A stretch of DNA of 64,000 nucleotides, from contig DASXUQ010000009.1 of assembly GCA_036504735.1 (NCBI GenBank), positions 291,204 to 355,203 of the forward strand, given 5' to 3'. The translations under genes and the position numbers were made by a program. Below are positions 5,466 to 64,000 of the stretch, in pieces. Source of the DNA: a bacterium. Its GTDB lineage: Bacteria > Electryoneota > RPQS01. The notes beneath the pieces are model-generated. The model was not told where the DNA came from. It made no database searches and was given only the letters and a program-made list of their open reading frames with translations. Each line of letters opens with the position of its first letter. Position 1 is the stretch's first letter.

Positions 5466-5476
5466 GGCAAAAGCAC

Positions 5477-7000
5477 ATGGTGGATGACTCGAGCGGGAGC
5501 ACTGCCGCATCGCTTGTGAAATACTTGGCAGGAAGTCTCGCCGCCGCCTATATCCTTATATATGTCGTGGTGGCGATCCTGCGCATCTCCTACCCGTTCG
5601 AACTGGAATGGGTGGAAGGCAGCATGGTGGATCACGTGCAGCGCGTGCTGGACGGCAAGCCGCTGTATGTCGCGCCCTCGGTAGATTTCGTCCCCGCCAT
5701 CTATCCTCCCTTCTATTATGTGGTCTCCGCCGGTGTGGCCAAAGTGACCGGCTTGGGCTTCTTGCCATTGCGGCTGGTCTCGCTGCTTTCTTCCCTTGGC
5801 TGTCTGGCGCTCCTCTTCTTCTGGGTGCGGCGTGAAACGAGGAGCCGCTTTGCCGGGTTGCTTGCGGCGGGGCTGTTTGCGGCGACCTATCGCCTGGGCG
5901 GTGCGTGGCTGGATCTTGGCCGCGTGGATTCCCTGTTTTTGCTGCTGCTGCTGGGCGCGCTCTACCTGTTGCGCTTCCACCGCACCCGAGTGGGCTTTGG
6001 GCTGGCGGCGGTGCTGCTCTTTTTCTCGGCTCTCACCAAACAGACCGCGCTGCTGGCGGCTCTTCCGCTGTTGTGGCTGGCTATTCGGCAGCGCAAACAG
6101 GGCGGCCTCACCTTTGTGGCGGTGTTTGTCCTATTGACCGGATTTGCGGCCGCCGCTTTGCAGATCACGAGTGACGGCTGGTTCAGCTTTTATGCGCTGG
6201 ATGTTCCTGCCGGACACAATATTATTCCCGGACGGATTGCCGATTTTGTGCTGGGCGATCTGCTGCGACCGTTTATGGTGGCCTGTCTGTGCGGCGTGGT
6301 GTACCTGATAATGCAGGCGGGGAAAGCCGCGCGCGAGGAGTTGTGGTTCTACCTGTTTTCCGGTGCGGGAGTGCTGCTGGCTTCATGGGTGCCGCGCATC
6401 AAAGACGGCAACTTTGCCAATGATGTGATTCCCGCATGGGCATTTCTGGCGCTGCTCTGCGGTGTGGCGGTGCCCGCGCTCCGCACAGCAGGGCAGAAGG
6501 TGCTCGCGGCCTTGCCGGAAGACTTTCCTGCCCGAGCGCGTCTTGCTCGCTGGGGCCTGCCCCTGTTTTACGGCGCGCTGGTGCTGCAACTGGCCACGTT
6601 GTATTACCTGCCGCAGGAGATCATCCCCACCGCTGCCGACCGCGCCGCCGGATACACGCTGCTCAAGAGTATTCAGCAATTTCCCGGCGAAGTCTGGGTA
6701 GCCCACCACGGCTATCTGGCCACGCAGGCTGGCAAACGGCCTTATGCCACCGCGTTGCCGATCTATGATGTGTTGCGCGCCAAGAATGAGCACGCCAAAC
6801 AGGTGCTGTTCGACAGCATCGATGCCGCTTTCAAGGCGCACCGTTTCGATGCGGTGTATGTGGATAACGACCGCTTTATGGACATCGCCGACCGCACGGA
6901 CTATGTGCGCAAAGCCGGCGTGTTTCCCGATCCGTCCGTCTTCTGGCCTGTCAGCGGCGCACCCAGCCGCCCGCTCCGCGTGTACGTTCCCCAGCCGTAA
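5477..7000 (+). CDS. GT-C (family 39-like) membrane glycosyltransferase, first of three tandem paralogues
   Basis: A 507-residue polytopic protein with about 10-12 membrane segments and a short extracytoplasmic C-terminal domain. The first luminal loop reads YPFELEWVEGSMVDHVQRVL and then LYVAPSVDF and YPPFYYVVSA, the pattern of ArnT/PMT-like GT-C enzymes, which use polyprenyl-phosphate sugars on the periplasmic side; the acidic residues after the first helix are the probable catalytic site. The next two genes share this loop and a C-terminal signature (FWPVSGxPxRP), so the three arose by tandem duplication. The sugar and acceptor are unknown. ATG at 5477 lies 11 nt after mfd. Confidence 0.85.
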   Translation: MVDDSSGSTAASLVKYLAGSLAAAYILIYVVVAILRISYPFELEWVEGSMVDHVQRVLDGKPLYVAPSVDFVPAIYPPFYYVVSAGVAKVTGLGFLPLRLVSLLSSLGCLALLFFWVRRETRSRFAGLLAAGLFAATYRLGGAWLDLGRVDSLFLLLLLGALYLLRFHRTRVGFGLAAVLLFFSALTKQTALLAALPLLWLAIRQRKQGGLTFVAVFVLLTGFAAAALQITSDGWFSFYALDVPAGHNIIPGRIADFVLGDLLRPFMVACLCGVVYLIMQAGKAAREELWFYLFSGAGVLLASWVPRIKDGNFANDVIPAWAFLALLCGVAVPALRTAGQKVLAALPEDFPARARLARWGLPLFYGALVLQLATLYYLPQEIIPTAADRAAGYTLLKSIQQFPGEVWVAHHGYLATQAGKRPYATALPIYDVLRAKNEHAKQVLFDSIDAAFKAHRFDAVYVDNDRFMDIADRTDYVRKAGVFPDPSVFWPVSGAPSRPLRVYVPQP

Positions 7001-7041
7001 GCCCACCTTTTCGCGAGCACCTTTTTGAGGAGTTCCAGTAA

Positions 7042-8625
7042 ATGGATGACCAGCTGGCCGTCGCGGATGATTTCCGCACCGGATGGATTCGCCGACTTGC
7101 CCCGTTCCTGAAAATTTCCGCTGCCTGCGGTGCGGCGGGCTACATCCTGATGTTCATCGTTCTGGCCCTGCGGCGCATGGCCTATCCCTTCGAACTGGAA
7201 TGGATGGAAGGGTTGAGTGTGGACCATGTACAGCGCGTGCTGGATGGCCTGCCGCTGTATGTCCCGCCTTCGGTGGATTTTGTGCCTTCGATCTACACAC
7301 CTCTCTACTATTATGTGGCGGCTATTCCGGCGGCAGTGCTGGGCAACGGTTTTGTTCCGGTACGGTTGATCTCCTTTCTGGCCTCGCTGGGCAGCATGGC
7401 GCTGTTGTTCGTCTATGTCCGCAAGGAAGCCAAAGATAATTTTGCAGGATTGATCGCGGCGGGATTGTATGCGTCCACCTATTATCTGACCGGCGCGTGG
7501 CTGGATATTGCGCGGGTGGATGCACTGTTTGTCTTCTTTCTGCTGCTGGCGGTGGGCGCCCTGCGCTTCCATCCCACGCGCACTGGTTGGATACTGGCCG
7601 CTCTGCTGACCACACTGGCTTTTCTGACCAAGCAGACGGGGCTCCTGGCCGCGCTCTTTTTCATGATCTATGCTGTGACCGCGCACCGGAAGCATGGCCT
7701 GTATTATATTGCGGCCTTTGTGCTGTTTACCGGCACGGCGGTGTTGGGCATGGATTGGCTGCATCATGGCTGGTTCAATTTCTACGTGTTCGAAGTCCCC
7801 GCCGGGCATCCGATCGAAACACTCCAGTTTTTGAAGTTCTTTGCGCAGGACACCCTGCGGCCCATGCCGCTGGCCAGCCTGTTTATCCTCACGTATCTGC
7901 TGATCCGCTGGCTGAAAGGCGAGCGCCAGGACATTGCTTTTTATGTGCTGGTCGGCATGGGGTTTCTGGCCGCGGCGGGTGCACCGCGCGTCAAGGCGGG
8001 AAACTATGTTAATGATCTGATTCCGGCGTATGCCTTTCTGGCGATGGTGTTCGGCATTTCTATTCCCGCGCTGCGAAACTGGTATGGTAACCTGTTTGCC
8101 GCGCTCCCCGCCAGCTTTCCGGACCGCGCCCGCATCGGCCACGGGCTCTCTGGTCTGTTTTACGCGTTGATTGCCGTGCAACTGATCATCATGGTCTATG
8201 GTCCAACCAACCAGATTCCTACACCGGCAGACCGCGCGACCGGTACAGAGCTGATCCACACGTTTGCCGCCTTCAAGGGAGATGTCTGGGTGGTCCATCA
8301 TGGCTACATGAGTGTTCAGTCCGGTAAACGGTCGCATTCCATGTCCCAGCCGTTCAATGATGTCCTCTGTGCAGGCAATCCGCAGGCAAACAAGCTGCTG
8401 CTGGATGATTTGAATCGCGCCTTGCAGAATCACCGCTTCGCCGCCATTGTCACCGATACCGATGAGGACAGTGTCGCCGCTTACTGCCAGAGGGCAGGCT
8501 ACATCTGCGAGCCGATTTCATATGCTGATGAGCAGGATGGCTGGCCGATCAGCGGTTATCCTACTCGACCCAGCAAAATCTACCTGCCGCAGGAACCTTC
8601 CTTGGCTGATAGGACCGCGCCGTGA
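7042..8625 (+). CDS. GT-C (family 39-like) membrane glycosyltransferase, second tandem paralogue
   Basis: A 527-residue membrane protein with the same layout as its neighbours: a cytoplasmic N-terminus, a catalytic first loop (YPFELEWMEGLSVDHVQRVL, LYVPPSVDF, YTPLYYYVA), about ten further membrane segments and a C-terminal domain ending in WPISGYPTRPSKIYLPQ. The start codon at 7042 is preceded by a GAGGAG box. Its 3' end overlaps the next start by 4 nt (GTGA), indicating translational coupling. The paralogues are divergent enough to suggest different sugar or acceptor preferences, but nothing in the sequence identifies the substrates. Confidence 0.85.
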   Translation: MDDQLAVADDFRTGWIRRLAPFLKISAACGAAGYILMFIVLALRRMAYPFELEWMEGLSVDHVQRVLDGLPLYVPPSVDFVPSIYTPLYYYVAAIPAAVLGNGFVPVRLISFLASLGSMALLFVYVRKEAKDNFAGLIAAGLYASTYYLTGAWLDIARVDALFVFFLLLAVGALRFHPTRTGWILAALLTTLAFLTKQTGLLAALFFMIYAVTAHRKHGLYYIAAFVLFTGTAVLGMDWLHHGWFNFYVFEVPAGHPIETLQFLKFFAQDTLRPMPLASLFILTYLLIRWLKGERQDIAFYVLVGMGFLAAAGAPRVKAGNYVNDLIPAYAFLAMVFGISIPALRNWYGNLFAALPASFPDRARIGHGLSGLFYALIAVQLIIMVYGPTNQIPTPADRATGTELIHTFAAFKGDVWVVHHGYMSVQSGKRSHSMSQPFNDVLCAGNPQANKLLLDDLNRALQNHRFAAIVTDTDEDSVAAYCQRAGYICEPISYADEQDGWPISGYPTRPSKIYLPQEPSLADRTAP

Positions 8626-50951: not shown

Positions 50952-52208
50952 ATGCAAACAGGGATATTTCAATTTTGTCCCGGGCGATTCCGACCCCTCG
51001 CGCTACTTGTGCTTTTCTTAACAAGCATGGCACTTTGGGGCGGTTCGGCCCGTGCGGCGGCGGTTAATGGATCGGCGTCGATTTGGAGTTATGTGCGCAA
51101 CGACACCACCAGCCATGTGCAGGTGGCGCCGATGGTTACTTTGAATGTGCGGGATTTCGGCGTGAAGTCGCTGCGCTTCGAGTCGTCGCTGCGCGGCTTC
51201 ACCGATATCCGCCACAGCACATCGGAAGATCGCCGCCTGCGCATCTGGCGCGCGGTGTTTGTGTATGCCCCGGACAAATCGCCGTGGGAAGCGCGGCTCG
51301 GACAGCAGTGGCTGACCGAAGGCGTGGGTCGGGGCAATGTGGCCGGGCTGTGGGTCAAGCATAAGCTGGGAGCGTTGAGCAGCGTCACCGTGTTCGGCGG
51401 CGCGCGGGTGTTAAGCTCGGTGGACTTGCAGGAGACCAACCACTATCAGGGTCTGGCCGCCGGCATTCACGGGCAGACACGCATCCACCGCTACAACGTC
51501 GGCGCATCCTACTTTTTTGTGGGCAAGGACAAGGTGCTCTATCAGGGCGCGGGCGTGGAAGCGTCGGGGCGGATCATCCATAATATGATGGCGCGCGGAC
51601 GGTTTGACGTCAACCTTGAACACGGTTCGGTGGAGAAGGGGCAGCTCGGGTTGTACTGGACGGCGAACAAGCGCCTGGATCTGACCGGCGAGTTCCGGGT
51701 CGAGCAGCCGCGGATTTTTGAAGATTCCTATTTCCGGCAGTTCCTCGGCCAGGTGAATACCACCTTTGGCCGGGTGGGCGCGCTCTGGAATTTCTACAAA
51801 ATGTTTTACGTGCGCGGCAACAGCGCGCTGCTGTTTACCGAAAGCGATAACGGGCTGTACAAGGTGCAGGCCGCGGCGGGCTTCAACAGTTGCCGTTCGC
51901 TGGAAGTGGGCTATACCCACTGGCTGTCGGTGGACAAGGCCAAGTGGGACGGCCTGTTCGGTGAGTTCCGCTGCCGGTGTTTCTCCAAGGTGAACGTGGA
52001 TGTGGGCTTCGATTGGGCACGCGGATCCAATGCGGAAACGACCCTGTTGCCCGCGCGGGACTCCCAGTCGCTGTACTTCGGGGCGGAAGTGACGCCGATT
52101 TCCGCTCTGACGCTTTCGGCCCGCGCCGAGCAGATCAAAGATCCGCTCTACAAGAGCCAGTGGCGCGGCCTGTTTTCGATCGGCACACACTTTTCCAACC
52201 TTCGATAG
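50952..52208 (+). CDS. outer-membrane beta-barrel, candidate porin of a porin-cytochrome conduit
   Basis: A 418-residue exported protein with signal RPLALLVLFLTSMALWGGSA (long n-region) and almost continuous amphipathic strands up to a C-terminal GLFSIGTHFSNLR (examples: VQVAPMVTLNVRDFG, LRFESSLRGFTDIRH, QLGLYWTANKRLDLTGEFRV, VNVDVGFDWARGSN). Two CRC cysteines lie near residue 339 (FRCRCF). It has no heme motif itself. It starts the locus and lies 9 nt before a 12-heme cytochrome gene, the order expected for the barrel that threads multiheme cytochromes through the outer membrane (as MtrB, PioB or OmbB do in other phyla). It is much shorter than MtrB, so it is a functional analogue by inference, not a clear homologue. 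Confidence 0.65.
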   Translation: MQTGIFQFCPGRFRPLALLVLFLTSMALWGGSARAAAVNGSASIWSYVRNDTTSHVQVAPMVTLNVRDFGVKSLRFESSLRGFTDIRHSTSEDRRLRIWRAVFVYAPDKSPWEARLGQQWLTEGVGRGNVAGLWVKHKLGALSSVTVFGGARVLSSVDLQETNHYQGLAAGIHGQTRIHRYNVGASYFFVGKDKVLYQGAGVEASGRIIHNMMARGRFDVNLEHGSVEKGQLGLYWTANKRLDLTGEFRVEQPRIFEDSYFRQFLGQVNTTFGRVGALWNFYKMFYVRGNSALLFTESDNGLYKVQAAAGFNSCRSLEVGYTHWLSVDKAKWDGLFGEFRCRCFSKVNVDVGFDWARGSNAETTLLPARDSQSLYFGAEVTPISALTLSARAEQIKDPLYKSQWRGLFSIGTHFSNLR

Positions 52209-52217
52209 GAGCCTCCC

Positions 52218-53153
52218 ATGAAAACCCGAGTCCTTCCTATCACCAGGATTTTGAGCCTTGGAGCCGTCTGTCTGCTGCTGGCCGTGGCGGCCTTTGCCAA
52301 GATGAAGATGGAGCCGTCGGCCACGCGCCGCGAGCTGAAGTTCAGCCACGGTTTTCATCAGGAGCAGGGAATTACCTGCGACCAATGCCATGTCAACGCC
52401 AAGACCAGCGCCACGGGCAAAGATGATCTGCTGCCCGGCCATGCGCAGTGCAGCCAGTGCCATGATGTCCAAAAGACCACCGAGTGCAGTACCTGCCATT
52501 TGAGCCAGGCACCGAAGCCCAGCGCGCGGATTGTCGATTACAGCCCCAAGTTCAGCCATCAGCGGCATATCGAGCAAGGCAAACTTGAGTGCACCCTGTG
52601 CCATACCAATCTCGATTCGGCGCTTACCCCCCATCAGATGGGACATGGGCCGAATATGGGCGAGTGCATGACCTGCCACGATCAGCAGCTGGTAAAGAAT
52701 GATTGCAGCACCTGCCATCTGCCGACGGACAAGCTGAAACCGGAAGATCATAATCTGAACTGGGTGTACCGGCACGGTATGGCGGCGTCGAGCATGACTG
52801 ATGTGCGCTGCATGATGTGCCACAACACCAACCAGAACGCAGCGATGGATTGCAACCGCTGCCACAACGGCGACCAGATCACCAATCCGCACCCGCGCGA
52901 CTATGTGACGCGCCACGGCGCGGATGCGCATCTGTCCGATGTGCAGTGCAACGTGTGCCACGAAGTCAGTTATTGTAACGACTGCCACGCACAGCGGCAG
53001 CTTGTCCCGCCCAGCCACTTCAAACCGAACTGGGCTAATCGCACCACAGGCGGCGATCACAAAGACCGCGCGGAATTCGATTTGGAAAGCTGCATGTCCT
53101 GTCATGACCGCCCCAATGCGGAGCCGGTCTGCGTTCAGTGCCACGGGAAATGA
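52218..53153 (+). CDS. 12-heme periplasmic c-type cytochrome (cytochrome c3-like)
   Basis: A 311-residue exported protein (signal ILSLGAVCLLLAVAAFA) with twelve CxxCH heme-binding motifs: CDQCH, CSQCH, CSTCH, CTLCH, CMTCH, CSTCH, CMMCH, CNRCH, CNVCH, CNDCH, CMSCH and CVQCH. Many non-motif His (KFSHGFHQEQG, KFSHQRHIEQG) can serve as second axial ligands, as in multiheme c3-type proteins. No lipobox is visible, so it should be soluble in the periplasm or inserted in the barrel encoded just before. It ends 8 nt before the 13-heme lipoprotein gene. Probable task: carry electrons from the inner membrane to the outer-membrane conduit. Confidence 0.93.
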   Translation: MKTRVLPITRILSLGAVCLLLAVAAFAKMKMEPSATRRELKFSHGFHQEQGITCDQCHVNAKTSATGKDDLLPGHAQCSQCHDVQKTTECSTCHLSQAPKPSARIVDYSPKFSHQRHIEQGKLECTLCHTNLDSALTPHQMGHGPNMGECMTCHDQQLVKNDCSTCHLPTDKLKPEDHNLNWVYRHGMAASSMTDVRCMMCHNTNQNAAMDCNRCHNGDQITNPHPRDYVTRHGADAHLSDVQCNVCHEVSYCNDCHAQRQLVPPSHFKPNWANRTTGGDHKDRAEFDLESCMSCHDRPNAEPVCVQCHGK

Positions 53154-53161
53154 GGCCCACT

Positions 53162-54481
53162 ATGAAACAACACAAATCTCTTTGGATATTTCTCGGGCTG
53201 CTCGCGCTGGCGCTGATGGTGGCGATGGTTTCCTGCAAGACCACGCGTGAACAATCCACCTTAGGTCCGCATCCGGCGGGTTGGAATGACCCGGCCAGCG
53301 CGGCCTTCCACGGCTTTGCCGCCGCCCGCGACAGCAACTCCTGCCGCGAGTGCCACGGTCAGGATCTGCACGGCGGATCCAGCGGGCGCTCCTGTTACGA
53401 TTGCCATGCGACCTTCCCGCATCCGGCCACCTGGATGGACACCACCAGTTCTGCGTTCCACGGTGTGGCGGCCAAGACCGACAGTAGCAAGTCCTGCGTG
53501 GGTTGTCACGGTTCCGATTTCCAGGGCGGCATCAGCGGCGTGGGCTGCTACCGCTGTCATACGACGTATCCGCATATTGTCAATACCGCCTGGCAGCAGC
53601 CGCTGTCGACGTCGCCGCTGTTCCACGGCTGGTACGCCCAGAGCGACACCAACGGCCCGGGACAGACCTGCAAGCCGTGTCACGGCACAGACTTCCGCGG
53701 AACGCCGCGGGCCAATTCCTGCTACGATTGCCACAGTGTGCTGCACACGACGGTGGAAAACGAAGATACCGATACTCACCGCGCGTTTGTCGCTTCCAAG
53801 GGCTGGAAGATCAATGATAACTGCGCCGTGTGCCACGGCACCGACTTTACGGGCGGCGCGGCGGCCGGTGTGGACAGTGCGGCGGTGTGCATCCAGTGCC
53901 ACGCGCCGACCGACAACGTGATGATGCTGACGGGCTGCAATGTCTGCCATACGACCGAACCGGAACTGCGTTCCTTCTGGAAAGTGCCGTTCGGCACGGC
54001 GGACGCGGGCGCACATCCGCTGCATGTGGCGGACAACAAGTTCTCCTGCCGCGAATGCCATCCGTCGCTGTCCGCGTCGGGTCATCCCCATCCGCTGCCG
54101 GCAGATGTGGCCTTCAACCGCGCCGTACTGGCCGATACCTTCGGCTTCAGCCCGGCGTTCAGCCATGTGGGCGCGCCCAACAGTGGCAACGGGGCCTGTT
54201 CGAATGTCTACTGCCATTCCAACGGCTTAAACCCGAACTTCCCGCCGCATCAGAATCCCCGTCCGGCGGTGGTGTTCCCGCAATGGACACTGCACGGCGG
54301 CTGCGGGATGTGCCATGCGATTCCGCCGTCTCTGGCTGATGACCCGAGTCACCCGCAGGGAACCGGCCTGAACTGTTCGGCGTGCCATCATGACGTGGAT
54401 CCGAACTCCAATTTCAATTTCCCGGATTCCATTCGGTTTGTCTCCGATTCTTTGCACGTGGATGCCAACTATCATTTGTAA
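53162..54481 (+). CDS. 13-heme outer-membrane lipoprotein cytochrome (OmcB-like role)
   Basis: A 439-residue lipoprotein (lipobox VAMVSC, Cys near residue 25) with twelve CxxCH motifs and one CxxxxCH (CSNVYCH near residue 348, a form typical of Geobacter-type outer-membrane cytochromes). The N-terminal half is built of repeats such as CRECHGQDLHGGSSGRSCYD and CVGCHGSDFQGGISGVGCYR, each a HG(x)D(x)GG pair of hemes, followed by a C-terminal lobe with CGMCH and CSACHH. ATG at 53162 gives the lipoprotein signal; a frame extension to 53138 does not. Lipid anchoring plus heme count suggests the cell-surface end of the conduit, but the side of the membrane cannot be read from sequence. Confidence 0.92.
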   Translation: MKQHKSLWIFLGLLALALMVAMVSCKTTREQSTLGPHPAGWNDPASAAFHGFAAARDSNSCRECHGQDLHGGSSGRSCYDCHATFPHPATWMDTTSSAFHGVAAKTDSSKSCVGCHGSDFQGGISGVGCYRCHTTYPHIVNTAWQQPLSTSPLFHGWYAQSDTNGPGQTCKPCHGTDFRGTPRANSCYDCHSVLHTTVENEDTDTHRAFVASKGWKINDNCAVCHGTDFTGGAAAGVDSAAVCIQCHAPTDNVMMLTGCNVCHTTEPELRSFWKVPFGTADAGAHPLHVADNKFSCRECHPSLSASGHPHPLPADVAFNRAVLADTFGFSPAFSHVGAPNSGNGACSNVYCHSNGLNPNFPPHQNPRPAVVFPQWTLHGGCGMCHAIPPSLADDPSHPQGTGLNCSACHHDVDPNSNFNFPDSIRFVSDSLHVDANYHL

Positions 54482-54590: not shown

Positions 54591-55943
54591 ATGGGCACAA
54601 CTCTCGACGTCAAGTTATTCTGGGTAGCCTTCGCGTGCTACGGATTCGGCTGGCTGGCGTATTCCTTCTGGCTGGGGCTGAGAAAACCGATCCTGACGAA
54701 GCTGGGAACCACGCTCTTTGTGCTGGGCATTATCCCGCAGACCATTGCCTTTGGTCTGCGCTGGGCCAATACCGGCCACTTCCCGCTCTCCAACATGTAT
54801 GAGTATCTCGCGGTGATGAGCTGGATGGCGGCGATCAGCCTGGCCTTTCTGACCTGGCGCTATCGCCATTGGGTCATCAGCGCGCTGATTTCACCTGTGG
54901 TAGTAATGTTGATGGTGGCGGCCTCGCTGCTGCCCAAAGAGCCTTCGATGCAGCTCATGCCTGCGCTGCAGAGTTACTGGCTGATGATTCATGTGTCGCT
55001 GGCGTCGATCGGCGCGGGCGCGTTTGCCGTCGCGGCGGCGGTGTCTATGATCTACCTGTTTGCCGCCAAGGACAAGGATGAGGAAAAGGCGCCGTTCCAG
55101 CCCAAGCTGAAAGCTCCGGCAATTTCGCTGGTGGCGATTCCGGCCTTGATGCTGATTATCGGTGGCGCAGCGGGCCTGTTCTCGAATGTTACCCACTTCG
55201 GCTTCTTCGGTGATCCGTCGGGCGGCATGGGCAGCGCGGTGATTTTGTGCGGTATGTATCTGCCATTGGCGGGATTTGTCTGGGCGCGCCTGGCCAAGGG
55301 TGAACCGGGACCGGAACAACGGTACTGGGCGGCGGTCGGTTTCCTGGCGCTGTTTATCGGCGCACTGGTTACCGGTTTCCTGATCCGCAGTGACAGGATT
55401 GCCTTGACGACCGACAGCCCGCTGAAGATCTTCGAATTCTTCGGTGTGACCCTGATCTGTTCAGCCATTGCCCTGTTTGTTGTTCATGCCCTGCTGGGCT
55501 TTGGCAAGGTGCCTGCCAAGTTGCATCTTGAGGGCAAACTGCTCGATGAGATCAACTACCGCGCCGTGACCCTTGGCTATCCCTTGTACACATTGGGCGC
55601 GTTGTTTGCCGGGGCCATCTGGGCCGAGCAAGCGTGGGGCGCCTTCTGGAGCTGGGATCCCAAGGAAGTCGGCGCACTGATTATCTGGCTGTTTTACAGC
55701 GCCTTCCTCCATGCCCGCTACCAGCGCGGCTGGTCGGGATCGAGAACCGCCCTGCTGTCCCTGGTCGGCTTTGCCATGATGATGCTCTCGTTCTTCGGCA
55801 ACTACTTCTTCGGCGGCCTGCACTCGTATGGACTTAACGCGGCCAGTGAACAACGTATCGAACTAGCCGCTGCGCCCGCGCAGGCGCAGCCGGCAACCGC
55901 ATCGCTGGCGGATGGGTTTTGGACAATCCCCACCGACAAGTGA
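54591..55943 (+). CDS. ccsA: cytochrome c biogenesis protein CcsA (ResC), System II heme handling
   Basis: A 450-residue membrane protein with about eight or more helices and the tryptophan-rich WWD signature in QAWGAFWSWDPKEVGALIIW, the heme-binding domain that presents heme to apocytochromes at the outer face of the inner membrane. Conserved His residues flank it (for example HVSLASIGAGAFAVAAAVS and HARYQRGWSG). It is longer than the shortest ResC forms because of an extra N-terminal helix pair and a Gln/Ala tail. ResB follows after 45 nt. Together they are the c-type cytochrome maturation system needed for the many heme proteins in this locus. Confidence 0.92.
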   Translation: MGTTLDVKLFWVAFACYGFGWLAYSFWLGLRKPILTKLGTTLFVLGIIPQTIAFGLRWANTGHFPLSNMYEYLAVMSWMAAISLAFLTWRYRHWVISALISPVVVMLMVAASLLPKEPSMQLMPALQSYWLMIHVSLASIGAGAFAVAAAVSMIYLFAAKDKDEEKAPFQPKLKAPAISLVAIPALMLIIGGAAGLFSNVTHFGFFGDPSGGMGSAVILCGMYLPLAGFVWARLAKGEPGPEQRYWAAVGFLALFIGALVTGFLIRSDRIALTTDSPLKIFEFFGVTLICSAIALFVVHALLGFGKVPAKLHLEGKLLDEINYRAVTLGYPLYTLGALFAGAIWAEQAWGAFWSWDPKEVGALIIWLFYSAFLHARYQRGWSGSRTALLSLVGFAMMMLSFFGNYFFGGLHSYGLNAASEQRIELAAAPAQAQPATASLADGFWTIPTDK

Positions 55944-55988
55944 TCGGATCCTTCGGTCTCTTAATCTTGATGAACTAACCTTGAGTAT

Positions 55989-57590
55989 ATGGACGATCTG
56001 AATTATCAGAGTTACCTGACGGAACAGGAAACTCTGGAGCCGGAAAGTAAGCCAGCGGCGAAGAAGAAGCTGAGCCTGTGGGATCTTCTGGCAACGATGA
56101 AATTTGCGATCTGGATTCTGGTGCTGCTGGGCGTGCTCTCGCTGGTCTCGCTGTTTGTCGGTGAACTTCTGCCCAAGAATGAAGCCGGACAGGCGACGGT
56201 ACAGGGAACGGGACGCGCGGTGGTAGATCTGTTCCAGATGACGGATCCCTTCCGTTCCTGGTGGTATAGGCTGTTGCTCGGTTTGCTGTGCCTGTCTCTG
56301 CTGGCCTGTGTGCTTGAACGCACCCCGGTTATCTGGCGGCTGTGGCATCGCAAGCCGCCGGAGGATGCCGGCTGGCTGCGGAATATCCGCTACGGTGTGC
56401 AGCGCGTTGTGACCGCTCCGCGTGAAGATCTGGAAAAGCATCTCGGCGGCGGCTGGGACTGGCGGCTGAAATCGGACAAGTTGTGGGTGGGCGAGCGTGG
56501 CCGGGTCGGCATGTGGGGTCCGCTGCTGACGCACATCGGCATGCTGCTCATCGGCGTCGGCGCATTGATCGGCTCCTTCGGCGGGATGACCACCCGCGCG
56601 GGCGGTTATGCCGCCGATACGATTGACGCTCAGGATGTGCCCGGTCTGCCCTTTGCCGTGCGGATCGACAGTTTCCGCATTCAGTACTGGCCGCTCCAGC
56701 CGGGGCAGATGGTACTGGTGGACAACCGTTATGTGGGCCGGCTGGTCAAGCTGGAGGCGGGTGGAACGTGGCTGGTCGAAGAGCAGGATGAGACGGGCAA
56801 GAAGACCTTGTCTTCCAACGAGCCGCAGTATATCCGCAATCAGTTCAACAACAATATGGATCGCGGCAACATCCGCAAGTTCGCCAGTTATGTGACGATC
56901 CTGGAAAATGGCCGCGAAATGGAAAAGCGGGAAATTGCGGTGAACGCTCCGCTGCGGCGCAGCGGCTACCGCTTCTACCAGAGTTCCTACGATCCGGATA
57001 ATCCGCGCGCGACTGCAACCTATGCCGGCGCGATGATTTCCCTGACGGACAGCGCCAAGGGGATCACCGACAGCCTGCTCTTGAAACCCGGCGTGGAAAC
57101 GGCCCTTCCCGGCGACACTCTGAAAGTCACCGCCGGCCAACTGCTGCCGCATTTCAAGCTGGGACAGAATGGGCCGTTCAGCGAGGACGCGGAATTTGTC
57201 AATCCCGCGGTGCAACTGTCTTTTAAGGGCCCGCACAGTTACGAAAAGACGCAGTGGGTGTTTTTGAAATTCCCGCCCATGCAGTCCGGACCGGGACACT
57301 TCAGCTACCGGGTCACCCGTTTGAGCGGGGAGCAGGCCTCGGCAGAACTGGCGACCATTTTCGAAGTCAAGAAGACGTATGGCGCCTGGATTTTGTGGGC
57401 AGGTTTCCTGATCTGCTCTTTAGGACTGGTATTGTGTTTCTACATTTCACACCGCGTGCTGTATGTGGAGTGGCCGCAGGCAGGACAGAAAGAGATCCGG
57501 TTGACCGGACTGTCCCGCAAGACGGCGCACCTGTTTGCGCGGCAGCTTGACCTTATGCTCGAAGGTTTGAACAGTCAGGCGGTCTCATAG
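55989..57590 (+). CDS. resB: cytochrome c biogenesis protein ResB (Ccs1)
   Basis: A 533-residue protein with the ResB layout: a cytoplasmic N-terminus, membrane helix near residues 38-58 (FAIWILVLLGVLSLVSLFVG), a second helix near 92-106 (YRLLLGLLCLSLLACVLERT), a helix near 177-195, a large extracytoplasmic domain (about 200-450) and a final helix near 459-480 (AWILWAGFLICSLGLVLCFY). ResB partners CcsA to join heme to CxxCH motifs. A short PNEAG-type loop (LLPKNEAGQATVQGTG) follows the first helix. The tetraheme cytochrome gene begins 58 nt downstream with a strong AAGGAGG box. Confidence 0.92.
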   Translation: MDDLNYQSYLTEQETLEPESKPAAKKKLSLWDLLATMKFAIWILVLLGVLSLVSLFVGELLPKNEAGQATVQGTGRAVVDLFQMTDPFRSWWYRLLLGLLCLSLLACVLERTPVIWRLWHRKPPEDAGWLRNIRYGVQRVVTAPREDLEKHLGGGWDWRLKSDKLWVGERGRVGMWGPLLTHIGMLLIGVGALIGSFGGMTTRAGGYAADTIDAQDVPGLPFAVRIDSFRIQYWPLQPGQMVLVDNRYVGRLVKLEAGGTWLVEEQDETGKKTLSSNEPQYIRNQFNNNMDRGNIRKFASYVTILENGREMEKREIAVNAPLRRSGYRFYQSSYDPDNPRATATYAGAMISLTDSAKGITDSLLLKPGVETALPGDTLKVTAGQLLPHFKLGQNGPFSEDAEFVNPAVQLSFKGPHSYEKTQWVFLKFPPMQSGPGHFSYRVTRLSGEQASAELATIFEVKKTYGAWILWAGFLICSLGLVLCFYISHRVLYVEWPQAGQKEIRLTGLSRKTAHLFARQLDLMLEGLNSQAVS

Positions 57591-57648: not shown

Positions 57649-58224
57649 ATGTACGGTCGTTTTGCGAAAATCATCACCTTCGCGGCGGTGATGATGGTTC
57701 TGGTTCTGGGTGCCGCCCTGGCCCTGGCCGAGGATGCCCCCAAGGCCGCCTCGGACACCAAAAAAGAGCACGCGTATGTCGGCAGCAAGACCTGCAAGAT
57801 GTGCCATAACACCGAAGCTCAGGCAAAGATTTACGACAAGTGGATGAGCACGAAGCATGCGCACGCCATGGCGGCGCTGGATTCGGCCAAGGGCGAGACC
57901 ACCAATCCCAAGTGCCTCAAGTGCCACACCACCGGTTACGGCAAAGCCACGGGTTTTGACAAGGTTAAGGACAAGCAGGGTGCCGAAGATCTGGGTTCGG
58001 TCGGTTGCGAAGCCTGCCACGGCCCCGGTTCGGATTATAAGGCCATGGGCGTGATGAAGAATCACGAGCAGGCCATTGCCAATGGTTTGATCGTTCCGAC
58101 CGAAGAAGTTTGCAAGACCTGCCACAATCAGGAATCGCCGACCTTCAAGGGCTTCGATTACACCACCATGTTCCCGAAGATCGCCCACGGTAAGAAGGCG
58201 GCGGGCGCTGGCGAGAAGAAGTAA
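57649..58224 (+). CDS. tetraheme cytochrome c554-type protein
   Basis: A 191-residue exported protein (signal ITFAAVMMVLVLGAALALA) with four CxxCH motifs: CKMCHN, CLKCHT, CEACHG and CKTCHN. The pattern YVGSKTCKMCHNTEAQAKIY and STKHAHAMAAL matches the cytochrome c554/c-prime family of soluble periplasmic electron carriers. The C-terminal tail is Lys/Gly-rich. An AAGGAGG box 7 nt before ATG 57649 suggests strong translation, and a strong hairpin follows at 58292. It is a good candidate for the diffusible link between inner-membrane and outer-membrane complexes. Confidence 0.9.
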   Translation: MYGRFAKIITFAAVMMVLVLGAALALAEDAPKAASDTKKEHAYVGSKTCKMCHNTEAQAKIYDKWMSTKHAHAMAALDSAKGETTNPKCLKCHTTGYGKATGFDKVKDKQGAEDLGSVGCEACHGPGSDYKAMGVMKNHEQAIANGLIVPTEEVCKTCHNQESPTFKGFDYTTMFPKIAHGKKAAGAGEKK

Positions 58225-58291
58225 GCATCCGGGTTGCCGGACGGCGCTGTGTGCTGACTGAGCAGTTGCCGCTCTTTAGGGGTGGAGCGTT

Positions 58292-58318
58292 GGGGCGGAT
58301 CTTTCTAAGATCCGCCCC
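58292..58318 (+). terminator. probable terminator after the tetraheme gene
   Basis: GGGGCGGATCTT (58292-58303) pairs perfectly with AAGATCCGCCCC (58307-58318). A weak T stretch (GTTTTTAAAG) follows 8 nt later, so termination may be partial. Confidence 0.7.
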
Positions 58319-58591
58319 GGCCCCCCGTTTTTAAAGAAGAAGACTTAGAAATAGGAAAAGCGGACTTTCGACAGAGGTTGGTGGGAATATCCGCCTTATT
58401 GCTTGACATAGAGATGATCTTATTTGAAGATCCTTTGCATCAGAAGAGCATGGCCGGACAGCCGTTCGGTGGTGCGGCGGTGAGTAACCCGTAGGGGTTT
58501 TCGGACCGCGCCCGCCCGCGTTGCGCCCTCCCATGTGAAAGGATTCTCTAAAAACCGAGCCGTGAGCGAAGCACGACCCGAAGGAGTCATC
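58319..58591. other. spacer before the T9SS-tailed cytochrome gene
   Basis: A TTGACA at 58403-58408 lacks a matching -10 box. A short hairpin GATCTT/AAGATC lies near 58416-58432, followed by GC-rich sequence and an AAGGAG box before ATG 58592. No gene is visible. The element GGTGAGTAACCCGTAGG near 58478 resembles a conserved 16S rRNA segment but is isolated. Confidence 0.45.
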
Positions 58592-60310
58592 ATGGGAAGG
58601 CTATCGGTCTTCTTCCGGTTGGCGATGAGTCTGCTCTTTGTCACAGGGCTGCACCACCTTTCCTACGGGCAGCCTGTCTCGGATTGCCTGCCGTGTCACA
58701 CGCATTATGGGCAGATGATGTGGCCCACTAATCCGCACGCGCACACGCAAGAGCATGTTGCCGGGGAACTGGCAGCCAACTGGGCAGGGCAGCCGCCGGA
58801 TTCCGTGATCATCGGATCGCAGGCGGAAAACTGCATTGCCTGTCACGCTCCGCGCGCCGTGACTATCGGCGGGGGCATGACGGAATCGCAGGCGATGGGC
58901 TATTTCTTTTCCACGAGTGGCGGTGTCTACACCGATTCCACCCGTTCGCTGCATACAGACACCTGGCCCGATGTCACGTGTGTGAGCTGCCACCGTATGC
59001 CCACGTCGCATCCGGGTCAAATGCCTACTCTGGCACTGTTTAATTCGACCACCGCGCAGTATGATTCGGTACGCAATGTGTCGGAGCAGTGCGGGCAGTG
59101 CCATGGCGGGCTGCGCTTTGCGGATACGGACCATCAATTGTTCTCAGCCTGGCAGCAGAGCACCCACGGTCATCGCGGCCAGACCGACGTTGCCTCGGAG
59201 TTGGCGTCCGATTGGGCAGGCCGGACTCCGGCGGAAGTCATCAGCGGCCCGGATCCGGAAGATTGTATCCAGTGTCACGCACCGACGGCGGTGAAGCTGG
59301 ACGGCGGAATCACGGAAGTGCAGGTGCTCAACCGGTTCTTTACAACGGTGAACGGACGGTTTACCGCGAACACCACCGTGGCGGATACGGCGCACTGGCC
59401 GGACGTGGCCTGCAATTCCTGCCACGATCCGCACCAGCCGGATTCCATCGCGATTTACAATTCCGCCTTACGCCGTTACGATTATTTGCCGAGTAGAGAT
59501 CAACAGTGCGGACAGTGCCACGGAAATTTGCGCTTTGCGGGCACGGACCACTTAAGCTACAATATCGAGCAGGGAACCGGGGGAATCGGAGTTCCCGATC
59601 TGGTGACGATGCCGGGAACGCACTGTACGGATTGCCACATGCACCGCGGCGATACCGATGGTACGCACTCCAAGACGTACGAAGGCCATCGCTGGTCCGT
59701 GTTCACGCCGGAGTCAGACGGCTCGGTGAGCGCTTCCTGCACTGTTTGTCATGCCGGAATGAGCGCCGATTCGGCCCAAGCCACCGTGGATGCGTGGCGC
59801 GGGGAATTTGAGCAGCTCGCGGCGAGCGCCGGCCAGCGTGTGGCCCAAGCCGACAGCGCGCTGCAAGGCAGCACAGACAGCCTCCGGCTGCGGGACCTCG
59901 ACGAAGCGCAGCGCAATCTCCAGTTTGCGCAGTCGGACGAGAGCGGCGGCGCGCACAACCACACGTATGTGATGGCGTTGTTCAATGACGCGATCATCAA
60001 AGCGGATGGAATTCTGGGCACAGACGCTGCGCCCCGGGCGGTTCCTGAACGCTTCGCGCTTCTCCAGAATTACCCGAATCCGTTTAATCCTTCAACGCGG
60101 ATTCAGTTCAGCCTGGCAGCTCAAGTGCATGTGCGGCTGCAGGTGTACAATGAATTGGGTGAACGGGTAAGCACCCTGTTGGACGGCAGCCGGCCCGCCG
60201 GAACCTACACACTGATGTGGGACGGAAAGAATGCCGCCGCGGGAATCTATTTTTACCGGCTTGAAGCCGGCAGCTTCACCGAAACCAAGAAGATGCTTCT
60301 GATCCGCTGA
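58592..60310 (+). CDS. 9-heme extracellular cytochrome with type IX secretion C-terminal tail
   Basis: A 572-residue exported protein with nine CxxCH motifs (CLPCH, CIACH, CVSCH, CGQCH, CIQCH, CNSCH, CGQCH, CTDCH, CTVCH). Two halves repeat each other: VAGELAANWAGQPPDSVIIG ... CIACHAPRAVTIGGGMTE ... CVSCH ... CGQCHGGLRFADTDH against VASELASDWAGRTPAEVISG ... CIQCHAPTAVKLDGGITE ... CNSCH ... CGQCHGNLRFAGTDH. A helical section (about 400-470) resembles the C-terminal helices of multiheme nitrite-reductase-type proteins. The tail FALLQNYPNPFNPSTRIQFS and GIYFYRLEAGSFTETKKMLL is the FCB secretion (T9SS-like) sorting domain. AAGGAG before ATG 58592 sets the start. It predicts an exported, surface-located heme protein. 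Confidence 0.92.
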   Translation: MGRLSVFFRLAMSLLFVTGLHHLSYGQPVSDCLPCHTHYGQMMWPTNPHAHTQEHVAGELAANWAGQPPDSVIIGSQAENCIACHAPRAVTIGGGMTESQAMGYFFSTSGGVYTDSTRSLHTDTWPDVTCVSCHRMPTSHPGQMPTLALFNSTTAQYDSVRNVSEQCGQCHGGLRFADTDHQLFSAWQQSTHGHRGQTDVASELASDWAGRTPAEVISGPDPEDCIQCHAPTAVKLDGGITEVQVLNRFFTTVNGRFTANTTVADTAHWPDVACNSCHDPHQPDSIAIYNSALRRYDYLPSRDQQCGQCHGNLRFAGTDHLSYNIEQGTGGIGVPDLVTMPGTHCTDCHMHRGDTDGTHSKTYEGHRWSVFTPESDGSVSASCTVCHAGMSADSAQATVDAWRGEFEQLAASAGQRVAQADSALQGSTDSLRLRDLDEAQRNLQFAQSDESGGAHNHTYVMALFNDAIIKADGILGTDAAPRAVPERFALLQNYPNPFNPSTRIQFSLAAQVHVRLQVYNELGERVSTLLDGSRPAGTYTLMWDGKNAAAGIYFYRLEAGSFTETKKMLLIR

Positions 60311-60570: not shown

Positions 60571-61521
60571 ATGGATCCATCACGACGACAATTCCTTAAG
60601 ACGGCCGGAGTGGCCGCCGCGGCTGCCGCCGCCGGGATTGTGGCCAAGCCACTCACGGCAGAGGCAAACGTTCATGTTGAGGCCAATCCGGACCGTTTCG
60701 GCGTCCTGACCGATACGACTCTGTGCATTGGCCTGAACTGCCGCCGCTGTGAAATCGCCTGCGCCAAGGAAAATGGGAACCCGCCCATTGACACACCGCC
60801 GGAAGACGAGTCCGTCTTCGACCATCTGCGCCGCACCCACGAGAATCAGTTCACGGTCGTCAACCGTTACCCGAATCCACACGGGGCGGACAAGCATCCG
60901 ATTTACGTCAAGAAGCAGTGTATGCACTGCGATGAGCCGGCCTGCTCCTCGGCCTGTTTTGTCAAGGCCCTGCGCAAGACCAAAGAAGGTCCGGTGGTGT
61001 ACGACGCCAGTGTCTGCGTCGGCTGCCGTTACTGCATGGTGGCCTGCCCGTTCGATATTCCGGCGTATGAATATCATAATCCGACCTCGCCCAAGGTGCG
61101 CAAGTGCACGATGTGCTATGCCACCCGCACCAGCCTCGGACGCAAGCCGGCCTGTGTGGAAGCCTGTCCCAAGGAAGTGATGACCTTCGGCAAGCGCAGC
61201 GATCTGATCAAACTGGCTTACGAAAAAATTCAGGCCGATCCGGTGCGCTATGAACGGCATCTTTACGGCGAGCATGAAGTGGGTGGCACAAGCTGGATGT
61301 TCCTGTCGGGTGCGCCGTTCGAAAAGATCGGCCTGCCGGAGCATCTGGGCGACGTGGGGCTTCCCGAATATCCGCGCAACTATCTGTCCGCGGCACCGCT
61401 GGTGATGGCGATCTGGCCAGCCCTGTGGGGCGGGCTGTATATGTTCACCAAGCGCCGCGACGAACTGGAAAAGCAGGAAAAGGAAAAGGGCCACGAAACC
61501 CATGATCAGGAGGAGAAGTAA
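60571..61521 (+). CDS. Tat-exported ferredoxin-type subunit of an Hmc-like complex (HmcB type)
   Basis: A 316-residue iron-sulfur protein. The Tat signal SRRQFLKTAGVAAAAAAAG opens it. Four [4Fe-4S] Cys groups follow: CIGLNCRRCEIAC (near residue 52), CMHCDEPACSSAC (near 118), CVGCRYCMVACPF (near 149) and CTMCYATRTSLGRKPACVEA (near 180). A C-terminal membrane anchor (LSAAPLVMAIWPALWGGLYM) precedes a charged tail. This matches HmcB/HybA-like electron-relay subunits facing the periplasm. Its stop overlaps the start of the NrfD-like gene (TAATG), so the two are tightly coupled. Confidence 0.92.
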   Translation: MDPSRRQFLKTAGVAAAAAAAGIVAKPLTAEANVHVEANPDRFGVLTDTTLCIGLNCRRCEIACAKENGNPPIDTPPEDESVFDHLRRTHENQFTVVNRYPNPHGADKHPIYVKKQCMHCDEPACSSACFVKALRKTKEGPVVYDASVCVGCRYCMVACPFDIPAYEYHNPTSPKVRKCTMCYATRTSLGRKPACVEACPKEVMTFGKRSDLIKLAYEKIQADPVRYERHLYGEHEVGGTSWMFLSGAPFEKIGLPEHLGDVGLPEYPRNYLSAAPLVMAIWPALWGGLYMFTKRRDELEKQEKEKGHETHDQEEK

Positions 61522-62750
61522 TGGCGGCTCCTTCTATCGGACGCCCCGCCGGCAGTGACTGGGTGCGGGAAAAGATCTTTTTGGGTATGACGCCGCGCGA
61601 GTATGTGCGCAGCCTGGTGACTCCGGGCAACGCGGTTGCGGCGGTGATTCTGGCGGTGGGACTGCCCATCACCTTTATCCGCTTCACGCAGGGGATGGGC
61701 GCAGTGTCGAATCTTTCCGACGCCAACCCGTGGGGAGTGTGGATTGCTTTTGACGTGCTGTGCGGCGTGGCGCTGGCCGCGGGCGGTTTTCTGACCGGCG
61801 GCGCGGTGCACCTGTTCGGCATGAAGGAATACAAGCCGTTGGTGCGGCCCGCGATCCTTACCGGATTTTTGGGCTACGCGCTGGTGGTGGTGGGACTGCT
61901 GTTCGACCTGGGCCGTCCGTGGCGTCTGCCCTATCCGATGATGGTGTCTTTGGGCACGACGTCGGTCCTGTTCGAAGTGGGCTGGTGTGTGGCGCTCTAT
62001 CTGATGTGCCAGGCGGTGGAAATGCTGCCGCCAGTCTTCGAATGGCTGGGCTACAAGAGACTGCGGCAATGGGCCGTGGGTCTCACCGCCGGAGCCACGG
62101 TTACGGCAGTCGTGCTCTCGACGTTGCACCAATCTTCACTTGGCGCGCTCTTTCTCATCGCTCCGGGAAAACTGCATCCGCTGTGGTACACGATGTATCT
62201 GCCGGTGTACTTTATCTGCAGTGCCATCGGCGGCGGCATCGGCATGATCATTTTCGAATCGTCGCTGTCGCACTCCTACTTCAAGGAGCAGACCAAGCAT
62301 CATCCGCATGGTGAATTCGACAAGCTGACCATCGGCCTCGGCAAGGCCGGCGCGGTGGTCATGTACATGAACTTCCTTCTGCGCTGGCTGGGTGTGGCGC
62401 ACGACAACCGCTGGGAACTTTTAACCACCGGCTGGGGCGCATGGTGGCTCGTGGAAGTGGTCGGATTTATCGGTCTGCCGTGTCTGGTATACCTTTGGGG
62501 ATACCGCAAGGACAACGTGCTGGCCATCCGCATCGCCGCCGTCTGGTCGGTGATCGGGCTGATCCTGAACCGCTTCAACGTCGGCCTGATCGCCTTCAAC
62601 TACACATCCACCGAGCGTTACGTCCCGCGCTGGACGGAAATCTGGGTCAGCGTGATGATTATCACGATTGGCGTTTTGATTTTCCGCTGGATGGTCAACC
62701 GCATGCCCATCCTCCTTCAGCATCCTGACTATGCCGGCGACGAACACTAA
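61521..62750 (+). CDS. NrfD/HmcC-type quinol-interacting membrane subunit
   Basis: A 409-residue protein with about ten membrane helices and no heme motif. It matches the polysulfide reductase NrfD/HybB/HmcC family (NAVAAVILAVGLPITFIRFT, then WGVWIAFDVLCGVALAAGGF, then GRPWRLPYPMMVSLGTTSVL, then STLHQSSLGALFLIAPGKLH). It would oxidise menaquinol in the membrane and pass electrons to the FeS subunit. It is followed after 18 nt by a tiny membrane-peptide gene and then by the multiheme cytochrome, the order of the Hmc complex of sulfate reducers. Confidence 0.92.
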   Translation: MAAPSIGRPAGSDWVREKIFLGMTPREYVRSLVTPGNAVAAVILAVGLPITFIRFTQGMGAVSNLSDANPWGVWIAFDVLCGVALAAGGFLTGGAVHLFGMKEYKPLVRPAILTGFLGYALVVVGLLFDLGRPWRLPYPMMVSLGTTSVLFEVGWCVALYLMCQAVEMLPPVFEWLGYKRLRQWAVGLTAGATVTAVVLSTLHQSSLGALFLIAPGKLHPLWYTMYLPVYFICSAIGGGIGMIIFESSLSHSYFKEQTKHHPHGEFDKLTIGLGKAGAVVMYMNFLLRWLGVAHDNRWELLTTGWGAWWLVEVVGFIGLPCLVYLWGYRKDNVLAIRIAAVWSVIGLILNRFNVGLIAFNYTSTERYVPRWTEIWVSVMIITIGVLIFRWMVNRMPILLQHPDYAGDEH

Positions 62751-62768: not shown

Positions 62769-62897
62769 ATGAATTCGATGCAGGATTTCGCTCTCGTCAC
62801 TCAGGCCGCGGAGTATATCGTTGGCATGACCGGTCTGCTGCTGTTTGCCCTTCTCTGGAAAGCCTTAAGCAAACCGAAGAAGGGAGCGCGGGCATGA
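62769..62897 (+). CDS. 42-residue single-helix membrane peptide (HmcD-like position)
   Basis: A short frame, ATG at 62769 to TGA at 62897, encodes MNSMQDFALVTQAAEYIVGM and then TGLLLFALLWKALSKPKKGA ending RA: a short polar start, one membrane helix (about residues 17-33) and a basic tail. Its ATGA overlap with the next start (62894) shows translational coupling. In Hmc operons a small subunit of about 45-50 residues (HmcD) sits at the same place between the NrfD-like and other genes. Similarity beyond size and topology cannot be judged at this length, so the assignment rests on position. Confidence 0.7.
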   Translation: MNSMQDFALVTQAAEYIVGMTGLLLFALLWKALSKPKKGARA

Positions 62898-64000
62898 ATA
62901 CGAAATTAGAAATTAGAAATGAGAAATTAGAAAGAAGACAGTTTTCTTTCAGCGTTTCAGCATTTCAGCGTCTCAGCGTTTGCGCTTGGTTTTTTGGTCT
63001 TTTGGCCTTTTGCTCATTGAGTTTCGCCGCGCCGCAGACGTTTCAGAAGAAGCGGAATACGCCGGCGGATTGCGCGGCCTGCCATACCTGCAAGAACCCG
63101 GATCAGACTAATCCCTGTCTGACGCTCTGCCCGCGGCCCCGCGCCACGTCGCAGGACATTATTCACGCGCCGGAAACCGTGCTCCTGTATGAACTGGAAA
63201 ACGAGTACGAACCGGTGGCCTTCAATCACCGCACCCATGCCCAGATGTCGGCGATGGGCGGCGAATGCGCCGACTGCCATCACTTCGGCGAAGGCGGGCG
63301 GATCGAGGCCTGCAAGCAGTGCCACAGCCTGACCGCGTCCGAAGATATGCGGCAGCCGGGGCTGAAGGGCGCCTACCACCGCCAGTGCATGAAGTGCCAC
63401 GAGCAGTGGAGCGGCGAGACCAACTGCGAGAATTGTCACATCAAGAAGGGCATGCCCGGACCGCTGACGGCGGCCAATGTCGCCGGAGCCCCTCACGAGA
63501 CGCACATGCCCGGCAATCTGAAAGATATGCAGCAGCCGGACAAGAAAGTCTGGCAGTCTTCCTATAACGGCGGCACGGTGGTGACGCTGCATCACAAGAA
63601 CCACACCGAAAAGTACGGGATCGACTGCGCCGCCTGCCATCACGCCGAAGGCTGCGGAAGCTGCCACAGCAAGCAGGGCACCACGGCGCAGGTCAGCAAG
63701 AGCGAACAGGCTCTGCACGCCACGTGCAATGCCTGCCATGCCGAGATGAGCTGCGGCCAGTGCCATCAGCAGAGTGAAGCGGTGGCCTTCAACCATGACC
63801 GCACCGGATTCCAGCTTGGCAAGCAGCACTCGAAACTGCAGTGCAAGTCCTGCCACGGCGATCCGTACCACTTTACCAAGCCGAAAGCCGACTGCAACGG
63901 CTGCCACAACAACTTTGCCGAAGGCAAGTTCAACCATGCCGCTACGGGCGTTTCGCTGGACGAGAACCACAAGGAAATCGGCTGCGAAATCTGCCACGTA
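62894..64000 (+). CDS. multiheme cytochrome c of the Hmc type (HmcA-like), 3' end outside window
   Basis: A frame from ATG 62894 is open to the window edge (369 codons seen). It carries twelve CxxCH motifs so far: CAACH, CADCH, CKQCH, CMKCH, CENCH, CAACH, CGSCH, CNACH, CGQCH, CKSCH, CNGCH and CEICH. Regular AFNHRTHAQM and AFNHDRTGFQ segments supply extra His ligands, typical of class III high-molecular-weight cytochromes. The signal peptide is unusual: an n-region of about 35 residues encoded by A-rich low-complexity repeat (KLEIRNEKLERRQ) precedes a hydrophobic core ending FCSLSFAA. It is the periplasmic electron acceptor of the FeS/NrfD-like subunits upstream. Confidence 0.92.
   Translation, partial: MNTKLEIRNEKLERRQFSFSVSAFQRLSVCAWFFGLLAFCSLSFAAPQTFQKKRNTPADCAACHTCKNPDQTNPCLTLCPRPRATSQDIIHAPETVLLYELENEYEPVAFNHRTHAQMSAMGGECADCHHFGEGGRIEACKQCHSLTASEDMRQPGLKGAYHRQCMKCHEQWSGETNCENCHIKKGMPGPLTAANVAGAPHETHMPGNLKDMQQPDKKVWQSSYNGGTVVTLHHKNHTEKYGIDCAACHHAEGCGSCHSKQGTTAQVSKSEQALHATCNACHAEMSCGQCHQQSEAVAFNHDRTGFQLGKQHSKLQCKSCHGDPYHFTKPKADCNGCHNNFAEGKFNHAATGVSLDENHKEIGCEICHV

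Follow-up and report, generated by a model that had tools for sequence, protein, structure and literature searches.

The central gene of this analysis encodes a nonaheme c-type cytochrome, related to OcwA and NrfA, that ends in a type A sorting domain of the type IX secretion system (T9SS). It lies in a 64,000-nt stretch of bacterial DNA, referred to here as the window, downstream of genes for a porin-cytochrome conduit. We propose, with a probability of roughly 0.63, that the protein is an OcwA-type terminal reductase that is delivered by the T9SS, is wired to the conduit, and reduces extracellular acceptors. The heme sites, the kinship with OcwA and NrfA, the tail and its conservation, the T9SS genes, and the gene order can all be read directly from sequence. 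Each of the three elements, OcwA-type reductases, T9SS cargo, and porin-cytochrome conduits, has been described before; what is new is their combination, which is conserved in nine genomes. In the open-access literature searched, we found no paper on a T9SS-tailed multiheme cytochrome, and none containing both ‘multiheme’ and ‘T9SS’.

The nonaheme cytochrome and its kinship with OcwA

The gene and its parts are as follows.

58592..60310, + strand: nonaheme c-type cytochrome (OcwA/NrfA-type) with a T9SS type A sorting domain; 572 aa, ATG start
58592..58669, + strand: N-terminal signal sequence, about residues 1–26; hydrophobic stretch ending SYGQ, read by inspection only
58721..59146, + strand: first half of the duplication, residues 44–185, hemes 2–4, TDH181 motif
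59150..59566, + strand: second half of the duplication, residues 187–325, hemes 5–7, TDH320 motif
59567..60022, + strand: hemes 8–9 and predicted NrfA-type C-terminal three-helix region, residues 326–477; PF02335 match at 342–471, OcwA and NrfA matches
60071..60307, + strand: T9SS type A C-terminal sorting domain, residues 494–572; TIGR04183 and in-genome tail profile

Behind the hydrophobic signal sequence of its N-terminus (MGRLSVFFRLAMSLLFVTGLHHLSYGQ), the protein carries nine CxxCH motifs, at residues 32, 81, 130, 167, 225, 274, 306, 345, and 383. Every cysteine of the protein falls within one of them, and shuffled versions contain at most two in 2000 trials. An earlier note on this DNA had described nine such motifs combined with a C-terminal sorting domain; the count of nine holds, and the tail exceeds the TIGR04183 cut-off (see next section). 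The same note had described a duplication of two halves of ∼140 residues, which is borne out: residues ∼44–182 align to residues ∼186–320 with a score of 343, against a best score of 102 among 200 shuffles that kept the CxxCH positions, and the halves (∼140 residues each) share 48% identity. No close paralogue of the heme part was found in the same genome. Helices are predicted at residues 392–423, 430–447, and 453–475; the underlying model, built from two sequences, is of low confidence (mean pLDDT 41) and was drawn on for secondary structure only.

The closest solved structure to the nonaheme is PDB 6I5B (E 6e-10 with the single sequence). A profile built from nine sequences matches it with an E of 1.1e-16 over residues ∼253–470, and the N-terminal part matches weakly. 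The PDB entry text reads ‘uncharacterized protein’; we take 6I5B to be OcwA of Thermincola potens. This assignment is supported by the active-site pairs of OcwA, HH281/282 and HH380/381 (PMC6703420), which coincide with HH pairs of the chain once a constant offset of 29 is applied. By its sequence, then, the heme part groups with OcwA, a nine-heme protein that serves T. potens as terminal reductase at the cell surface. Shared features include the nine CxxCH motifs, a homologous C-terminal half, histidines at the open hemes 2 and 5, and, as predicted, NrfA-type C-terminal helices. Unlike the window protein, OcwA comes from a Gram-positive host and lacks a T9SS domain; compared with OcwA, the window nonaheme has the added sorting tail, and its halves keep about 50% identity. 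The spacing from heme 1 to heme 3 appears ∼40 residues shorter than in OcwA, where an additional beta-sheet domain occupies residues 75–156.

The TDH181 and TDH320 sites do not vary among the nine tailed proteins. They align to HH281/282 and HH380/381 of OcwA, respectively; OcwA thus has His-His where the window nonaheme has Asp-His. The alignment segment at TDH181 is weak by itself (-2.3 bits), but its placement is supported by the duplication, in which TDH181 and TDH320 line up with each other. Outside the CxxCH motifs, eight histidines are invariant (residues 49, 140, 181, 192, 281, 320, 366, and 455). This number equals the six distal ligands of the six bis-histidine hemes of OcwA plus one histidine for each open heme. 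Together, the alignment of the TDH sites and the tally of histidines suggest that each duplicated half probably holds one open-site heme (hemes 2 and 5). Weaker structural matches over hemes 8–9 and the helix region are to NrfA and an octaheme nitrite reductase (2J7A, E 2e-6; 8RV0, E 4e-5). In contrast to those enzymes, the window nonaheme lacks the CxxCK active-site motif, has nine hemes, and is predicted to be exported.

The C-terminal tail and the secretion genes

The tail scores 34.2 bits against TIGR04183 (cut-off 23; match at residues 494–569) and 28.0 bits against PF18962 (cut-off 27). It also scores 29.0 bits against PF13860, FlgD_ig (cut-off 27). For most family members scanned, FlgD_ig equals or exceeds Por_Secre_tail in Pfam, and the only solved structures that the tail sequence matches are those of FlgD. 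T9SS C-terminal domains are described as Ig-like 3 + 4 beta-sandwiches (PMC11285876), so an overlap with FlgD_ig is to be expected and such a match does not discriminate. Because Pfam cannot separate a sorting domain from a FlgD-like module, we compiled 28 further tails from this genome into a profile. The nonaheme tail scores 112.9 bits against this in-genome profile and the tails of eight orthologues score 91–108 bits, while five other window proteins give no match.

TIGR04183 matches at least 150 places in the genome, and all of the matches listed exceed the cut-off. The earlier note had asked for T9SS components in the genome and for further heme proteins with the same tail, and both searches succeeded. 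The lack of all T9SS components, which the note had named as refuting its reading, is not what the genome shows. Of the outer-membrane part of the machine, SprA is encoded as a single long frame of 2266 aa (586 bits; 753 bits when summed with its neighbours, cut-off 200), PorU scores 612 bits (cut-off 420), and a PorV adjoining PorU scores 289 bits (cut-off 90). The motor protein GldM gave no match in the genome to TIGR03517, the sole model tried, which may miss divergent motors. The tail score, the at least 150 such tails, and the presence of SprA, PorU, and PorV together identify the nonaheme tail as the genome’s own type of T9SS tail, and we infer that it functions as a secretion signal. 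The protein resembles T9SS type A cargo such as the gingipains in its signal sequence, in its Ig-like C-terminal domain with PNP and terminal K-M-x-L-x-K/R motifs, and in the SprA, PorU, and PorV of its genome. It differs in that the cargo is a nine-heme cytochrome and that GldM was not detected with TIGR03517. The occurrence of TIGR04183 in Calditrichaeota has been described as marking the FCB superphylum (PMC5317091), and a T9SS has been suggested for FCB phyla outside Bacteroidota (PMC11285876).

The second tailed heme protein is a 470-aa multiheme cytochrome with eight CxxCH motifs on contig 2 of the same genome (L098:6873-8285, - strand), whose tail scores 104 bits on the in-genome profile; the tally of tailed heme proteins is a lower bound. 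About nine PorV-family proteins of this genome exceed the cut-off, which seems many for one T9SS; two of these are encoded near SprA, on contig 8.

Orthologues and the conduit genes

A first orthologue came from a scan of genome contigs, in a MAG labelled Calditrichota (L052; 51–54% identity). A profile search within the phylum of L052 then found the family in eight of 82 genomes, L052 included. These eight orthologues share 45–51% identity with the window nonaheme. All of them have nine CxxCH motifs whose spacing matches, and each ends in a tail of the [YF]PNPFNP type. TIGR04183 is matched by all nine tailed family members at an E of 0.001. All eight carriers have SprA, but SprA is matched in all 82 genomes of that phylum (over the cut-off in 80), so its co-occurrence with the nonaheme is uninformative. 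We take the phylum of the window and that of L052 to be different, since the searches returned different sets of genomes (39 and 82, respectively). No orthologue was found at an E of 1e-10 in the 38 other genomes of the window’s phylum.

The genes that flank the nonaheme in the window are listed below.

50952..52208, + strand: predicted outer-membrane beta-barrel of the conduit, 418 aa; AlphaFold model, fold matches, synteny
52218..53153, + strand: 12-heme c-type cytochrome of the conduit; 12 CxxCH, homologues beside tailed nonahemes
53138..54481, + strand: 12-heme cytochrome, probable lipoprotein, start likely at 53162; 12 CxxCH, syntenic homologues
54591..55943, + strand: CcsB/CcsA cytochrome c maturation protein (System II); TIGR03144, 231 bits, cut-off 187.6
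55989..57590, + strand: ResB-like System II protein; PF05140, 190 bits, cut-off 24.6
57649..58224, + strand: tetraheme c554-like cytochrome; PF13435, 56.5 bits
60571..61521, + strand: HmcB-like Tat-signal Fe-S protein; NF045715, 394.8 bits, just under the cut-off of 420
61521..62750, + strand: HmcC/NrfD-like membrane protein; PF03916, 77.4 bits; NF045714, 521 bits, just under the cut-off of 550
62894..64000, + strand: HmcA-like multiheme cytochrome, continuing beyond the window end; 12 CxxCH inside the window, NF045713 far under its cut-off

The AlphaFold model of the barrel shows a signal helix and 22 strands (pLDDT 65), and its best 50 Foldseek matches are all outer-membrane barrels. The sequence belongs to no Pfam family, and against MtrB/PioB one barrel homologue reaches only an E of 0.07. 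The barrel may work like an Mtr/Pio conduit, yet we do not class it as a member of that family. Homologues of the cytochrome lipoprotein in L069 and L070 have a clear lipobox. The presence of CcsB and ResB (54591-57590) in the same cluster agrees with the CcsA/ResB maturation that had been predicted, and the HmcC/NrfD-like protein is the probable quinone-interacting subunit of the downstream complex. Past the window end, the cluster goes on with two 17-CxxCH proteins (∼830–850 aa) and one 16-CxxCH protein (L101:970-5950 and 6249-7979).

Downstream of the tetraheme gene and ahead of the nonaheme, a GC-rich hairpin at ∼58284–58325 is followed by a run of T (58284–58340 in all), a possible terminator. 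The hairpin, the T-run, and the gap of 367 bases ahead of the nonaheme gene suggest that transcription of the nonaheme begins separately from that of the upstream conduit genes, perhaps together with the Hmc-like genes. The leader is no more structured than its shuffled versions, and no Rfam RNA was found in the window. A weak Rfam match upstream of the nonaheme, mir-1908 (E 0.59), was dismissed.

Homologues of the 12-heme conduit protein occur in 27 of the 39 genomes of the window’s phylum, and the six closest examples examined show the same gene order for the 12-heme protein, the barrel, and the lipoprotein cytochrome. At six of the nine tailed loci, at least part of this conduit set is in the same cluster as the nonaheme. 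The full set accompanies the tailed nonaheme in the window, L065, L067, and L070. In L069 taken together with L097, as one locus, it lies several kilobases from the tailed nonaheme, and in L068 only the lipoprotein cytochrome is present, at the edge of a short contig. For L067, L070, and L097, the barrel assignment relies on position and alignment and not on a significant BLAST match, and the L066 contig is too short to judge. No conduit genes are found near the nonaheme of L052, which has hydrogenase/complex I-like genes instead, or near that of L071, which shares Hmc-like genes with the window. In L069, a 932-aa frame with 19 CxxCH motifs (3867-6665, - strand) also separates the conduit genes from the tailed nonaheme.

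Three relatives of the window genome’s family encode a different nonaheme immediately upstream of the conduit barrel (L118:11627-13388, L119:6917-8636, and L120:11660-13397, all - strand). These proteins likewise have nine CxxCH motifs and an NrfA-type C-terminus, but unlike the tailed protein they carry an N-terminal lipobox and a PKD-like domain and have no tail. They are distant relatives of the tailed protein, with only ∼25–27% identity over the C-terminal part, and the PKD-type form matches OcwA weakly (E 9e-6). In L065 and L070, the slot directly upstream of the barrel is taken by the tailed nonaheme. The window genome encodes a PKD-type lipoprotein as well, on contig 2 (L098:8603-10222, - strand), which is 47% identical to the L118–L120 form and adjoins the tailed eight-CxxCH cytochrome described above. 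Since lipoprotein and tailed nonahemes occur in one slot, we read them as two mountings of a nonaheme reductase at one conduit. There is an even chance, in our estimate, that the T9SS places a heme-loaded terminal reductase outside the cell and that tailing and lipid anchoring interchange on one conduit across lineages.

Proposed electron route, alternatives, and descent

In the mechanism that we propose, Sec would carry the nonaheme across the inner membrane, and CcsB and ResB from the same cluster would load its nine hemes in the periplasm. PorV and PorU would recognise the C-terminal Ig-like sorting domain, and SprA would pass the protein to the cell surface. Folded cargo fits through the SprA pore, and the heme-loaded nonaheme would presumably cross it in that state. 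The quinone pool would feed the conduit, with the downstream HmcBC-like complex as the best candidate for this step. The nonaheme, at its putative place on the surface, could then take electrons from the upstream-encoded conduit of barrel, 12-heme cytochrome, and lipoprotein cytochrome through a presumed contact. Electrons would leave via one or both open-site hemes (2 and 5) to acceptors that are probably extracellular. This arrangement resembles known porin-cytochrome conduits, such as Pcc of Geobacter and MtrCAB of Shewanella, in that a barrel, a multiheme cytochrome, and a cytochrome lipoprotein are encoded together with an extra surface cytochrome. It differs in that the window barrel has no match at the MtrB/PioB level and that the surface module would travel by the T9SS. 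MtrC and OmcA, by comparison, travel by the type II secretion system and have a lipid anchor.

The earlier note had cast the nonaheme as a second route for placing hemes outside the cell, besides a barrel conduit. This part of its proposal finds no support in the form given: with conduit genes in the same cluster at six of the nine, the nonaheme looks like the outermost piece of the conduit. A T9SS-delivered outer module of a porin-cytochrome conduit is thus more likely than an independent second route. The opposing view, in which the nonaheme is released to the matrix or medium by the T9SS and acts independently of any contact with the barrel conduit, draws on L052 and L071, whose nonahemes have no conduit genes nearby, and on the 38 other genomes of the window’s phylum, which lack the nonaheme while most keep the 12-heme conduit protein. 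A secreted protein by itself could not carry electrons across the outer membrane, a step that this route would still need, and given also the six loci that retain both parts we regard a truly independent route as very improbable.

Two further alternatives concern the tail and the substrate. The tail could be a FlgD-like Ig module with no role in secretion, which would leave the protein in the periplasm as a multiheme reductase or electron carrier. The FlgD_ig scores and the exclusively FlgD structural matches point this way, but at least 150 proteins of a genome that has SprA, PorU, and PorV end in this domain, the 28-tail profile recognises the nonaheme tail at 113 bits, and the Ig-like nature of T9SS C-terminal domains (PMC11285876) deprives the FlgD_ig match of its discriminating value; we consider a periplasmic module unlikely. 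Alternatively, the protein could be exported by the T9SS and yet mainly reduce soluble nitrogen or sulfur oxyanions (nitrite, hydroxylamine), rather than serve as a terminal reductase of extracellular electron transfer. OcwA can act on nitrite and hydroxylamine (PMC6703420), and the fold groups with NrfA and octaheme nitrite reductases. The rates of OcwA are, however, significantly below those of true NrfA (PMC6703420), small soluble substrates need no enzyme at the surface, and most tailed loci carry conduit genes, all of which makes a mainly soluble substrate doubtful, if a little less so than a periplasmic FlgD-like protein.

If the surface-reductase reading is true, it names a delivery system for surface cytochromes in T9SS-bearing lineages and adds cofactor-loaded cytochromes to the cargo of the T9SS. 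Heme motifs combined with a T9SS tail would also provide a simple genomic marker of extracellular electron transfer in uncultured bacteria. Moreover, the finding of an OcwA-type enzyme in outer-membrane organisms, with a duplication of the two active-site halves that can still be recognised, is relevant to the proposal that octaheme cytochromes derive from OcwA-like nonahemes (PMC6703420).

In a tree of the eighteen halves from the nine tailed proteins, the N halves cluster apart from the C halves (98/98), which indicates that the duplication is older than the tailed family. Gene conversion that would keep the halves alike was considered and rejected, as N and C halves group apart. When each half is rooted by the other, the window copy pairs with L052 rather than falling outside the rest (88/86 and 96/90). 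Horizontal transfer would explain this pairing, although the branches are long. The L052 nonaheme itself sits within a hydrogenase/complex I-like cluster together with a seven-heme cytochrome (L052:1-15255), a setting unlike that of the other loci.
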